Below, piece after piece: positions 4,964 through 10,315 of a DNA stretch of 50,765 nt. The stretch's first letter is position 1. The number at the start of each line of letters is the position of its first letter. Position numbers and translations under genes: made by a program. A model generated the notes under the pieces. That model was not told the DNA's origin, did not search any database, and was given only the letters and a program-made list of their open reading frames with translations. The stretch comes from an uncultured Erysipelotrichaceae bacterium (GTDB lineage Bacteria > Bacillota_I > Bacilli_A > Erysipelotrichales > Erysipelotrichaceae), in assembly GCA_947036815.1 (NCBI GenBank), contig CAMQRS010000007.1, forward strand, positions 1-50,765, written 5' to 3'.

Positions 4964-5161
4964 GTTTATGAAATATATGGAGTAGAAGAAACAAACGTAA
5001 AATACAAATACAAGGAGTGGATACAGTGCGTAATTTTCATGTATGTATATAAGTTAATGCATCGAATATTACACCTTAGTTTAAAACTACTACCACTTAT
5101 GCACAAAGCCATTATTGTTTTTAAAATATGCTATGATAGTAATGCGAAGAAAGGGGAACGA

Positions 5162-5626
5162 ATGAAAATAATAATAAATATTCAAGAAGATATGAATGAA
5201 AACGAAATTCATTTATGTGTACGTGAATTAAACGAGGAAGTAGTAGCAATACAAAAAATAATTCAACAAAACTTATCTTCATATAATGAAATGGTTGTAT
5301 ATCAAGAAGATGTCGAATACTATATACCGCTAAAACAAATTCTCTTTTTTGAAACATCAGGAAGAGAGATTATGTTACATACAAAATCTGAACTATTTGT
5401 GGTGAAAAAGAAATTGTATGAGTTAGAAGAAATACTCCCTGATTACTTCGAACGTATTTCAAAGTCATGTGTGGTCAATGTGTTATCCATTTATTCAATG
5501 AATAAAAAAGTAGTAAGCAACGGCTTGATTGAGTTCAACGGTACCCATAAACAAGTGTATGTATCAAGAATGTATTATAAGAGTTTAAAATTAAAGTTAG
5601 AGAGGAAACGTAGATCTTATGAGTAA
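5162..5626 (+). CDS. LytTR-type DNA-binding regulator
   Basis: 154 residues. An N-terminal segment of about 50 residues precedes a LytTR DNA-binding domain (from about VEYYIPLKQILFFETSG to the end, with DYFERISKSCVVNV and YVSRMYYKSLK as typical elements). There is no receiver domain, so it is a one-component LytTR regulator. The start at 5162 is chosen for the AAAGGGG binding site just upstream; a longer frame to 5039 lacks one. It overlaps the next gene by 8 nt, so the two are translationally coupled and very likely functionally paired. Confidence 0.82.
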   Translation: MKIIINIQEDMNENEIHLCVRELNEEVVAIQKIIQQNLSSYNEMVVYQEDVEYYIPLKQILFFETSGREIMLHTKSELFVVKKKLYELEEILPDYFERISKSCVVNVLSIYSMNKKVVSNGLIEFNGTHKQVYVSRMYYKSLKLKLERKRRSYE

Positions 5627-6353
5627 AATTAAAAATATAGTTAAAGCATTGTTTTTTATAGTATTAGCAGTGTGTTTAATTGGAGGAGAATTAGATTATT
5701 TTGAAGGGTTAAACATTTGGAGAATTGGATTCATCTTAATGTTTTCATACAGTGTGATTCAAGCGATCTACTATAAAAGTTTTTCTAGCGCATGCTTCAG
5801 CGTGGCAGCTCTATACTATGTAGTACAATCGCTTGTGGATGTTCCTAAGTTATCGGTATGGGTATTGTTTATTAGTTCTATCTTATTTAGTATGGCATTG
5901 TCACACCTGTTTCCAAATAACTACAAATACAAAAAAAAGTGTAAGTATAGTTATGAATACGAAGGTAATGAGAAAACAAGTGGATCCAATTATGATTATA
6001 GTAGTGATGGTTTTGAAGGAGAAAATAAAGTGTACGTAGGTGTGAATCTAGGGAGTGCTGAAAAATATATAAGCTCTAATAAATTTGAATCATGCGAAGC
6101 ACATTGTAATTTTGGAGAGTTGAAAATATATTTTGATGCAGCAAGTATGGATTCAGCTAATGGTAATTTATATGTAGAACTTAATTTCGGGGAAGTAGAT
6201 GTTTATGTACCTAGAAATTGGCGGGTAGAAACAAGTGTATCTTCGGCATTTGCAAGCGTGAACTTTAAAGGAACGGAATCAAGTGATAAAAATAAATTGT
6301 TAAAAATTAGTGGAAGCGTCCATTTTGGAGAATTAAATATTATTTATATTTAA
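5619..6353 (+). CDS. LiaF-like membrane protein coupled to LytTR regulator
   Basis: 244 residues. Three to four hydrophobic segments fill residues ~7-98, followed by a Lys/Tyr-rich linker and a C-terminal domain of repeated beta-like pieces (FGELKIYFD, NFGEVDVYVP, HFGELNIIYI). This resembles the C-terminal beta-helix of LiaF-family cell-envelope stress sensors. Known LytTR/membrane-partner pairs often use the membrane protein to hold the regulator inactive; by analogy this one may restrain the upstream LytTR protein. The signal is unknown, and the family assignment rests on pattern only. Confidence 0.65.
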   Translation: MSKIKNIVKALFFIVLAVCLIGGELDYFEGLNIWRIGFILMFSYSVIQAIYYKSFSSACFSVAALYYVVQSLVDVPKLSVWVLFISSILFSMALSHLFPNNYKYKKKCKYSYEYEGNEKTSGSNYDYSSDGFEGENKVYVGVNLGSAEKYISSNKFESCEAHCNFGELKIYFDAASMDSANGNLYVELNFGEVDVYVPRNWRVETSVSSAFASVNFKGTESSDKNKLLKISGSVHFGELNIIYI

Positions 6354-7217: not shown

Positions 7218-7220
7218 ATA

Positions 7221-7244
7221 AGGGGATCATTAGGTCCTTTTTTT
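7221..7244 (+). terminator. Terminator after IMPase gene
   Basis: AGGGGATC/GGTCCTTT with G-U pairs and loop ATTA, followed by a run of T. Confidence 0.6.
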
Positions 7245-7338
7245 GTTGTAATATATATTTTAGATAATCTATAAATGTGGTAATTGGAGGCTCAAAAAAC
7301 ATAAAATTAAAAAAATTTATTTTTTTTCTATAAAAGGG

Positions 7339-7367
7339 TTGCCAAGTGTAAATCTGTATGGTATTAT
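7339..7367 (+). promoter_or_regulatory. Promoter of tRNA-Asn
   Basis: TTGCCA (7339-7344), 17-bp spacer, TATTAT (7362-7367), 12 nt before the tRNA. Confidence 0.75.
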
Positions 7368-7379
7368 GTTTAAGCAGTT

Positions 7380-7455
7380 GCCTGAATAGCTCAGTTGGTA
7401 GAGCACTCGGCTGTTAACCGGACGGTCACAGGTTCAAGTCCTGTTTCAGGCGCCA
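7380..7455 (+). tRNA. tRNA-Asn (anticodon GUU)
   Basis: A 76-nt tRNA with acceptor stem GCCTGAA/TTCAGGC, anticodon loop CTGTTAA and encoded CCA. The anticodon stem has a C27-A43 mismatch and a U28-G42 wobble. Its last six bases begin a 44-bp direct repeat that recurs at 10415, marking it as the insertion site of the downstream island. Confidence 0.95.
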
Positions 7456-7493
7456 TGTAACAGATAAACACCCATTTGGGTGTTTTTTTCTAT
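7450..7493 (+). repeat. 44-bp direct repeat, left copy (att-like)
   Basis: Identical base for base to 10415-10458 (offset 2965), with mismatches immediately outside both ends. It contains the tRNA-Asn GCGCCA end and the terminator hairpin. Confidence 0.95.
7466..7490 (+). terminator. Terminator of tRNA-Asn
   Basis: AAACACCC-ATTT-GGGTGTTT followed by T; it lies inside the 44-bp repeat. Confidence 0.85.
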
Positions 7494-7502
7494 ATTAAGA
7501 TG

Positions 7503-7536
7503 AAGATGTACACCGTAATTGCGGTGTACATCTTTT
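7503..7536. terminator. Strong terminator at the left inner end of the island
   Basis: AAGATGTACACCG pairs perfectly with CGGTGTACATCTT (13 bp, loop TAATTG) and is followed by T. No gene lies between it and the tRNA-Asn terminator, so it may be a relic of the DNA that arrived with the island. Confidence 0.75.
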
Positions 7537-8241
7537 TGTTTAGAAGTGACTTGGTACGTTTGAGAATTGAGGAGTATGAAATAGAAGAAATTCAACATAA
7601 AAGTCCGACTGAGTTAGATGAGTGTTCAACGATAGAGATATAGGATATATTAAGCTAGCCTATATGGTGAATATGAAGGCAGATATGAAAGAGCGGTTAT
7701 GCAACTTTAGTAGCCGAACAGTAAGAAAGATCGGATATTACATTTAAAAATCACAATTTTTTTTTCAAAGGCTTGACAATAAAAGTTGATGAAAGCAGTG
7801 AATTTTGAATGAACAAGAAGTGCGCTGTAAAGGGGTGATACATTTATATTTTTAAATTTTCAAGTCAAGAGCAAAACTTTTTCACATAGGCTTTATGTGG
7901 TAATATTTCACCTTGGTATTTTCAAATTCTTTTATTTTTCTTTCATATGGAGGATGAGGGGGGAAATGATAATAGGAAAGAAGAAATAATAGTTAAGAAA
8001 ATTTGGTAGATGTGTAAAGCTGACAAAGAGATAATATTTATTGCATTTAACACCCCCCCTTTTTTATTATTGTTAATTGAAGTAATTAGAATCATAAAAT
8101 AAAGGTTAGTAATAAGATAAAAAATACATAATTAATACTAAATGAATCAGTTCTATATAATTGAATGTAACAAATTGTAACAAGTGTCAAATTAAATAAC
8201 GGTTTTAAGGTTATAGCATGAATTAAAGCGTTTATTAAGAT
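7537..8241. other. Long non-coding stretch inside the island
   Basis: About 700 bp without a convincing gene. A short frame from about 7540 to 7642 encodes a Glu-rich stretch (LRIEEYEIEEIQHKSPTELD) and looks like a decayed coding remnant, but I cannot identify it. A G6 run (about 7960) and a C7 run (about 8053) are present. The rest is AT-rich. Confidence 0.45.
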
Positions 8242-8271
8242 TTGTTTTTTTTCATAATAAATGATTATAAT
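8242..8271 (+). promoter_or_regulatory. Promoter of the radical SAM/peptide operon
   Basis: TTGTTT (8242-8247), 18-bp spacer, TATAAT (8266-8271). Transcription would start near 8278, just ahead of the AGAGGT binding site at 8281. This also rules against translation from the earlier ATG at 8261. Confidence 0.6.
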
Positions 8272-8293
8272 ATTTTACATAGAGGTACATAAT

Positions 8294-9817
8294 ATGCTTA
8301 ATAAAACTGAATTAGTTGATTTACTAATAAAGGTATATCCAGATAATAACATTGGAGCACTTGGACAGGTATTTACAACAACAAATAATGAATATTTTTA
8401 TGATAGTGGAACAGGAAAAGTATTTAATTGTGGTAGCAAAGAATTTGAAATTTTATCATATATATCAAATGATGATATAATATCTATTAAGAACCTTGAT
8501 AGCTCATATGAGCTTTCTATTGGTAATATTTTAAATTTAATTTCTAGTGAAAACATCCTAATAACTTCCGTTCAAAATAAGTTTTTTATACCTACAAAAG
8601 ATGAATTAAATAATTCCGCCATACATGGAATTGAACAGGTTGTTCTAGAGTTAACAGAACAGTGTAACTTACGTTGCAAGTACTGCATATATCATGAGGA
8701 AAATCCTCAGTTTAGAGGCTTTAGCACTAAGAACATGAGTGAAGAAACAGGGATGAAAGCGATAGATTATATGCTAGAGCATAGTAATAATGATTTAATT
8801 ATTGGTTTCTATGGAGGAGAACCTCTATTAAGGTATACGTTAATGAAAAAATTAATAGAGTATAGTATATCTAAAAAAAATACAAAAAAATTAAGTTTTT
8901 CATTTACTACTAATGGTGTCTTGATTACCGAAGAAATGGCGGAGTACTTGGCTTCGTTAGATGCAACAGTTTTGATTACATGTAGTATAGATGGGCCTGA
9001 GCATATTCATGACGAATGGAGAATAGACGGAGGTAAAGCCGGATCTTTTTCAAGAAGTATTCGAGGATTAAAATATTTAATAAATGCATTTGATAAAAAA
9101 ACGGATAAGATTGCTCAAATTTATTCAGTTTTATGTCCTCCTTATACAAAAGAAAAATATATTGAAATAAGTGATTATTTTAATAATGCTTCTTGGATTC
9201 CTGAAGATATTCAGATTTCTTATACTTATGTAAAAGACTATTCATTAGATAATCATGTCACTATGACTAATAAAGTACAAAATTTAAATATAGATGATCC
9301 AATGGCAGTAACAAATCCTATAAAAAAATACGCAATGGAAGAAATAATGAATAATAATATAGGAATAGGATATGGGGAAAAAATAGAGAAAGCAAATATA
9401 TTTACAATTCACAATCGACTATTAATTCATACACCGAGTGACATGATGCCAATGAATGGTTGTTGTGTACCTGGAAAAAGAAGAGTATTCATTAGCACGG
9501 ATGGTGACTTTAAAGTTTGTGAAAAAATTGGAGATTCTCCAAGTATAGGTAATATTAGCAAGGGAATTGAGATTGATAAATTATATAAATATTATATTGC
9601 AGATTATAAAGAAAAATCACTACAAAAATGCAAAAATTGTTGGATAAAAAATATTTGTCCAGTATGTTATGCATCGTGTTATAGTGAATTTGGAATAGAT
9701 ATGGAAAAAAAAGACAAGGTGTGTCATGCAGCTCGTCTTGACGTAAAGAATAGGTTAGTACAATATCATGAAATATTAGAACAAGCGCCTGATAAGATAA
9801 GTAAAATTATTGCTTAG
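8294..9817 (+). CDS. Radical SAM/SPASM peptide maturase
   Basis: 507 residues, with start 8294 chosen for AGAGGT at 8281 and the promoter position. Residues 1-100 form an N-terminal region of the kind that often binds a precursor peptide (RRE-like; inference). The radical SAM cluster motif CNLRCKYC uses Cys124, Cys128 and Cys131; GFYGGEPLL is the SAM-contact GGE motif. The C-terminal SPASM region supplies auxiliary Fe-S ligands: Cys390/391, 409, 446, 449, 455, 458, 462 and 477. This architecture belongs to enzymes that install thioether or other crosslinks in ribosomal peptides. The next gene, 46 nt downstream, is a small Cys-containing peptide, its likely substrate. It resembles, from memory, maturases of clostridial Clo7bot/Cys-rich peptide systems. 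No transporter or peptidase accompanies it. Confidence 0.92.
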   Translation: MLNKTELVDLLIKVYPDNNIGALGQVFTTTNNEYFYDSGTGKVFNCGSKEFEILSYISNDDIISIKNLDSSYELSIGNILNLISSENILITSVQNKFFIPTKDELNNSAIHGIEQVVLELTEQCNLRCKYCIYHEENPQFRGFSTKNMSEETGMKAIDYMLEHSNNDLIIGFYGGEPLLRYTLMKKLIEYSISKKNTKKLSFSFTTNGVLITEEMAEYLASLDATVLITCSIDGPEHIHDEWRIDGGKAGSFSRSIRGLKYLINAFDKKTDKIAQIYSVLCPPYTKEKYIEISDYFNNASWIPEDIQISYTYVKDYSLDNHVTMTNKVQNLNIDDPMAVTNPIKKYAMEEIMNNNIGIGYGEKIEKANIFTIHNRLLIHTPSDMMPMNGCCVPGKRRVFISTDGDFKVCEKIGDSPSIGNISKGIEIDKLYKYYIADYKEKSLQKCKNCWIKNICPVCYASCYSEFGIDMEKKDKVCHAARLDVKNRLVQYHEILEQAPDKISKIIA

Positions 9818-9863
9818 TAATTCAGTATAAAATATATAGTGAATTTAGAAAGGAGGATATTTT

Positions 9864-9977
9864 ATGAAATTAGTAAATCCATTAAACAAAGTAGTAATTG
9901 AAAAAGCAGGGAATGAATTTTATTCTGCAGCTTGCAGTTGCCCGTTTATGTCTCAAACAGTAATGTTTAACTTCTAG
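9864..9977 (+). CDS. Candidate 37-residue RiPP precursor peptide
   Basis: A short gene that simple ORF length cut-offs would miss. A near-perfect AAAGGAGG (9849-9856) sits 7 nt before the ATG, and a terminator follows. The peptide has a leader-like half starting MKLVNPLNKVV and ending near GNEFY, then the probable core SAACSCPFMSQTVMFNF. The core has two Cys in a C-S-C pattern, Ser/Thr residues and an aromatic C-terminal end FNF. The leader motif KLVNP resembles, from memory, precursors of Clo7bot-type systems, but the core has far fewer Cys than I recall for those. It is cotranscribed with the maturase. A thioether (sactionine or ranthipeptide) link from Cys24 or Cys26 is the expected product; this is inference. 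Confidence 0.82.
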   Translation: MKLVNPLNKVVIEKAGNEFYSAACSCPFMSQTVMFNF

Positions 9978-10000
9978 AGTTTAACAGTTTGAATGAGTTA

Positions 10001-10042
10001 AATGTACTTCTTATTTCATATAATGAGAGGTACATTTTTTTG
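10001..10042 (+). terminator. Terminator after the precursor peptide
   Basis: ATGTACTTCT (10002-10011) pairs with AGAGGTACAT (10026-10035) and is followed by seven T. It ends the maturase-peptide transcript. Confidence 0.8.
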
Positions 10043-10315
10043 TTTGATTTTTTGGTAATTTAAAAACTAATGTTGTATACTAAGCTATTGGAAGTCCGTC
10101 TTGTCATAATATTGTCCTTGCTCATTTTCTCTTATCTTTCTTGTCCACATTATTATAACCATTCCACGATTTAACCTTGTTTTTATGCAATAATCGAGTA
10201 TTTTTATACAACAATCCGTTAAGAAGGTGGTAATTGATCTTTCTCTTAAGCAAGTTGTCAAAATGGAATTAGCATACAAATAGTATAAAATAACCTGTTA
10301 TTTTTAAAAAAACTA
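10043..10315. other. Non-coding right arm of the island
   Basis: No supported gene. A minus-strand 64-codon frame (10279-10085) has no ribosome binding site and no recognised family; it may be decayed coding sequence. AAAATAA/TTATTTT around 10287-10304 could form a short hairpin. Confidence 0.4.

Follow-up and report, generated by a model that had tools for sequence, protein, structure and literature searches.

The window, meaning the whole stretch of 50,765 nt analyzed here, carries a two-gene cassette on its forward strand with the following features:

8294..9817, + strand: RumMC-like radical SAM/SPASM maturase gene (507 aa; ATG at 8294, stop codon at 9815-9817)
9849..9856, + strand: Shine-Dalgarno sequence AAAGGAGG of the peptide gene, recognized by sequence
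9864..9977, + strand: 37-codon precursor gene (frame and core kept in five other genomes; NF035954 E value, 4e-4)
9864..9932, + strand: leader MKLVNPLNKVVIEKAGNEFYSAA, which together with the CxC aligns to CA_C0660 profile positions 1 to 26 (predicted cleavage site approximate)
9933..9974, + strand: core CSCPFMSQTVMFNF, 14 residues (predicted links Cys26-Val33 and Cys24-Phe37, from the RumC register and alignment)
10000..10044, + strand: intrinsic terminator (16-pair stem at 10000-10037 plus T tail)

The first-pass annotation described this locus as a minimal radical SAM RiPP cassette with an unlisted precursor, and the coordinates of the enzyme gene, the 46-nt gap, AAAGGAGG, the 37-codon gene, and the terminator hold. 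An in-frame ATG is also present at 8261, but AGAGG is better placed for the start at 8294. The peptide gene runs from an ATG at 9864 to a stop codon at 9975-9977, and its 37-aa product, MKLVNPLNKVVIEKAGNEFYSAACSCPFMSQTVMFNF, has Cys residues at positions 24 and 26. Five terminator-like sites were found in the region, against 0.8 expected. A search of the source genome identified a single copy each of the enzyme and peptide genes. The ~1.1 kb 5′ of the enzyme gene (7218-8293) contains no clear protein gene; one tRNA (7380-7452) and a poly-C/poly-T tract (near 8053) lie in this gene-poor stretch. About 2 kb upstream of the cassette, genes for a LytTR regulator and then a LiaF-like protein (5039-6353) were identified and are probably unrelated.

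Among NCBIfam profiles, the ruminococcin C maturase RumMC (NF035951) ranked first for the window enzyme at 540 bits, followed by CcpM (251 bits), the lachnocin maturase (171 bits), and PapB (150 bits); the SCIFF maturase and GggB profiles scored 117 and 57 bits, respectively. RumMC was the best NCBIfam match for the tested enzymes paired with short peptides (short-type enzymes). The window enzyme lies below the curated NF035951 cut-off (540 versus 720 bits), as do relatives paired with longer precursors (419 to 494 bits). A Clo7bot-type system had been named as the nearest in appearance. It resembles the cassette in being a radical SAM RiPP system, but a Clo7bot origin was discarded: its maturase profile is absent from the enzyme's best 25 NCBIfam matches, and the precursor was unmatched. 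By alignment, the CX3CX2C motif of the window enzyme lies at 124/128/131 and its SPASM Cys residues at 390, 409, 446, 449, 455, 458, and 477. The cluster Cys of RumMC2 are at 126/130/133, 394/413/462, and 450/453/459/481 (PMC8188230); using that numbering, 10 of 10 have counterparts in the window enzyme at constant offsets of +2 and +4. An AlphaFold model from a nine-sequence alignment (mean pLDDT, 75) has an N-terminal RRE-like domain at about residues 20 to 90, with three strands and then helices at 24 to 86 (pLDDT mostly 80 to 90), and its fold matched the maturase CteB best in the PDB (5wgg; E value, 8.8e-16), with CteB 5why also among the best matches. The modeled architecture is RRE-SAM-SPASM.

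In enzyme trees, from which Ruminococcus gnavus RumMC was left out, six short-type enzymes split from five long-precursor enzymes with support of 100/100. Support for the short-type clade fell to 85/87 once the divergent enzymes from L051 and L053 were added, and monophyly of the short-type maturases is therefore likely, short of proof. Comparison of six with eight sequences identified C46 (RRE strand 3), K344, Y360, and K473 as specific to short-type enzymes; C230 was dropped as a marker, since it is also present in L051, which has a long precursor. One plasmid-borne RumMC-like enzyme from Paraclostridium (L048:4962-6517) is annotated as two pieces and probably frameshifted; it adjoins an intact precursor gene and an ABC transporter gene.

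The small gene is a genuine precursor gene and more than a chance frame, as first proposed. A DNA search with the pattern CxCP[FW]x[ST]Q[ST][VA]MF identified the core motif CxCP[FW]xxQ[TS][VA]MF in 6 of 316 genomes of the order, with one match per positive genome, and the reversed pattern gave zero matches in the same 316 genomes. A RumMC-like enzyme (NF035951; E value, ≤1e-90) was found in 6 of 295 genomes of the order, the identical six that carry the peptide core. The small ORF expected downstream of homologues was present in all five intact cassettes, 35 to 81 nt from the enzyme gene, and a stem-loop with a T run lies 3′ of the peptide gene in the window, G037, G076, and G096. The peptides read MKEVKVIVESKKQQTIAEGSCSCPFTSQTVMFFTF in G052, MKEVKVIVENKKQEAIAKGSCWCPWTSQTVMFINF in G096 and G102, MEEVKVIVENKKQETVALGSCWCPWYTQTVMFINY in G037, and MKMVNQKMTDENKRNLICNCPFASQSAMFGGGWYLVNKG in G076. 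Both Cys residues are invariant in 6/6 short peptides, in keeping with the earlier suggestion that Cys24 and Cys26 are the likely donors, and the alignment shows conserved aromatic residues in the core. The 37-codon frame is also kept in relatives, where most peptide pairs show more synonymous than replacement differences (e.g., pS 0.40 versus pN 0.11 for G096/G037), with small counts and a few core comparisons showing no synonymous excess.

A single genus (g38) accounts for four of the six positive genomes, which leaves three independent lineages. Only four of nine g38 species carry the cassette core, and the neighbors in G037 differ from those in G052 and G096; thus, in this genus the cassette is mobile or frequently lost. 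In G102, 12 bases separate the peptide start from a contig end, and the other neighbor matches the G096 locus, so assembly most likely truncated this cassette. No further short cassette turned up among 395 genomes drawn from the class, searching 392 genomes of the phylum for the enzyme gave no additional case, and scans of viral contigs, both for the enzyme and for the core pattern, and of phage records gave no match. An alignment scan of viral contigs identified RumC-like loci with long precursors (L051, its apparent duplicate L052, and L053) and none with a short one, and the genome contig search gave only three distant relatives, all with long precursors. L051 and L053 are IMG/VR contigs classed as viral, and their RumMC-like enzymes accompany long precursors of the CA_C0660/Apre_1838 type. 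NCBIfam 20.0 has no entry for the short class; the core string SQTVMF was found in no paper by full-text search, which says little, as most papers omit such sequences.

The sole profile match of the window peptide was to the CA_C0660 precursor (NF035954), through the leader and CxC; it covers positions 1 to 26 of 64 and falls below the cut-off (20.4 versus 60 bits). The RumC precursor profile (NF035950) gave no match in the NCBIfam search. Long precursors were identified at L002, L003, L004, L048, L049, L050, L051, and L053, and are about 65 to 74 aa where the gene start is clear. Like the CA_C0660 and Apre_1838 (TIGR04067) putative precursors, most have an MK[LIF][IV]NP leader and then a CxC, a style common to the window peptide, and are encoded beside a RumMC-like enzyme, but these relatives differ from the window peptide in their length, their second Cys cluster after the CxC, and a usually adjacent ABC transporter. 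Within the short class, mean identity is higher in the 14-residue core (0.58) than in the leader (0.39), the reverse of the longer precursors (core, 0.26; leader, 0.37). The KLVNP leader motif, earlier suggested for alignment, varies across the short class, in which it is the core that is conserved, and the leader NP is absent in g38.

Judged by sequence, the nearest known system is ruminococcin C/CA_C0660. The likeness to ruminococcin C (NF035951 and NF035950) includes the best enzyme profile, the RRE-radical SAM-SPASM arrangement, the same cluster Cys, a CxC that opens the core ~20 residues in, and a +7/+13 register that fits the N-terminal hairpin. RumC itself has 63 aa, four Cys, and two hairpins, whereas the window peptide has 37 aa, two Cys, and at most one predicted hairpin; here, one enzyme and one precursor take the place of a multigene cluster, and both fall below the family cut-offs. 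Of the suggestion that this could be a new precursor class, the conserved class stands, but it has kin, as the match of leader and CxC to the CA_C0660 profile indicates. We regard the peptide as a shortened relative of RumC-type precursors rather than a member of an unrelated class, and the candidate grouping is a short, single-hairpin precursor class of the RumC/CA_C0660 kind with its own probable maturase subclade.

In the first hairpin of RumC1/C2, Cys24 is linked to residue 31 (+7) and Cys22 to residue 35 (+13) (PMC6779426). Transferred to the window peptide, this register would join Cys26 to Val33 and Cys24 to Phe37, the last residue, and for this reason the product reads as a single hairpin, or half of RumC. 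The corresponding acceptors would be Val and Asn/Thr in g38, with one residue left over, and Ala and Gly in G076, with 8 residues beyond +13; short cores of the window and g38 thus end 0 or 1 residue past +13. The residue at +13 varies across the short class (F, T, N, and G), which agrees with the acceptance of Ala, Thr, Gly, and Lys as acceptors by RumMC2 in the second hairpin (PMC8188230). Given the enzyme family, thioether formation in the window peptide is very likely; by analogy, attachment at the α-carbon is likely, and Val33 and Phe37 are offered as a testable proposal argued from the register.

The gene pair, its conservation, its kinship to RumMC and to the CA_C0660 precursors, and the presence of all cluster Cys are established directly, and at the gene level a radical SAM/SPASM maturase adjoins a Cys-bearing precursor, as in sactipeptide systems. 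We favor, with a probability of about 0.6, a bicistronic, ruminococcin C-like RiPP cassette that is reduced to one hairpin formed by predicted thioethers. Carried over from RumMC2 (PMC8188230, PMC6779426), the mechanism would begin with binding of the 37-residue peptide's leader by the N-terminal RRE of the enzyme. The radical SAM cluster would then give rise to a 5′-deoxyadenosyl radical that takes the α-hydrogen from the acceptor residue, and the Cys sulfur would be joined at this position with the SPASM clusters assisting. Closure of the inner bridge (Cys26-Val33) first and the outer bridge (Cys24-Phe37) second would give a single 14-residue hairpin with two nested rings, corresponding to the first hairpin of the two in RumC. 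Residues 1 to 40 of RumC2, the N-terminal hairpin alone, are an extremely poor substrate for RumMC2 (PMC6779426), so the short-type enzymes must differ, and the cassette is a naturally occurring test case for the maturation of an isolated N-terminal hairpin by RumMC-type enzymes.

It is possible, if rather unlikely, that the same cassette installs another set of cross-links, such as one thioether (e.g., Cys26-Val33), the swapped pairs Cys24-33/Cys26-37, a non-α (ranthipeptide) attachment, or a carbon-carbon bond at the conserved Phe/Trp. For RumC's own N-terminal hairpin, the authors left some room for swapped pairing (PMC6779426), and the conserved core aromatics would suit a carbon-carbon bond. 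The PapB and SCIFF maturase profiles also match the enzyme, at 150 and 117 bits, but far more weakly than RumMC, by far the best profile at 540 bits; moreover, the core has no PapB-type Asp/Glu acceptors, and both Cys are invariant in 6/6 peptides. Decay is far less probable still: the 37-aa length against 65 to 74 aa in relatives, with the second hairpin missing, could suggest a RumC-type precursor shortened by a stop codon, but the length class, core, and enzyme-peptide layout are kept in distinct lineages, the window enzyme is intact, and synonymous differences predominate in most pairs, and a decayed or truncated remnant was rejected on these grounds.

Neighborhoods were compared for clues to export and role, with flanks read for about 5 to 10 kb on each side where contigs allow. 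No exporter, protease, or immunity gene adjoins any intact short cassette, and the neighbors vary between lineages and are mostly metabolic. In contrast, an ABC transporter gene adjoins the precursor at four of the five longer-precursor loci with flanks read (Herbinix, Paraclostridium, Sarcina, and Anaerococcus), the Fontibacillus locus having no adjacent one. The window genome encodes no C39-ABC exporter, only a 131-aa C39-like frame, and EcsB, an alternative export route, was not found there. The product could therefore be a conserved modified signal or cofactor for its producer, by a logic like that of SCIFF or peptide pheromones, rather than an exported antimicrobial, a role compatible with the hairpin chemistry. 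Although the core is better conserved than the leader, opposite to the longer precursors, the cassette is known from three lineages and its patchy spread (4/9 g38 species) is unlike that of a housekeeping cofactor; furthermore, all four g38 genomes encode C39-type transporters elsewhere, and some RiPP clusters rely on exporters encoded elsewhere. We hold the signal or cofactor reading to be somewhat less probable than its denial. Given core conservation across lineages and the lack of an adjoining exporter or immunity gene, a bacteriocin role is no more likely than a signaling or housekeeping one. The fuller proposition, an exporterless class of single-hairpin sactipeptides constrained in core rather than leader and serving as signal or cofactor rather than bacteriocin, is speculative; if true, the short maturase clade would show a two-hairpin antibiotic system cut to one or, in the other direction, RumC would have arisen by gain of a second hairpin.

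The cassette offers a compact, testable substrate-enzyme pair, and what a conserved core does where no exporter gene is close by is a functional question in its own right. Should the register be correct, the C-terminal residue would itself serve as a thioether acceptor, and the product would, to our knowledge, be the smallest nested sactipeptide hairpin, streptosactin being as short but un-nested. Streptosactin is a 14-residue product with two thioethers, encoded by a small gene cluster (PMC8172795). The window cassette resembles the streptosactin/GggB system in its 14-residue core, two (here predicted) thioethers, and small gene cluster, and differs from its un-nested rings, its other maturase, and its cluster with protease and regulators.

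A second RumMC-like enzyme of G102 is encoded at a different contig end (L038:1-120), where AAAGGAG and GTGAAAAA lie just before the end and a small gene 3′ of the enzyme is apparently cut 8 nt into its GTG start. In G076 (L037:15012-17990) and G102 (L038:2181-5239), mannose/sorbose PTS genes (IIB, IIC, and IID) adjoin a RumMC-like enzyme. These PTS genes are 81 to 91% identical between the two genomes, whereas the enzymes share just 43% identity, and the relative orientation differs.
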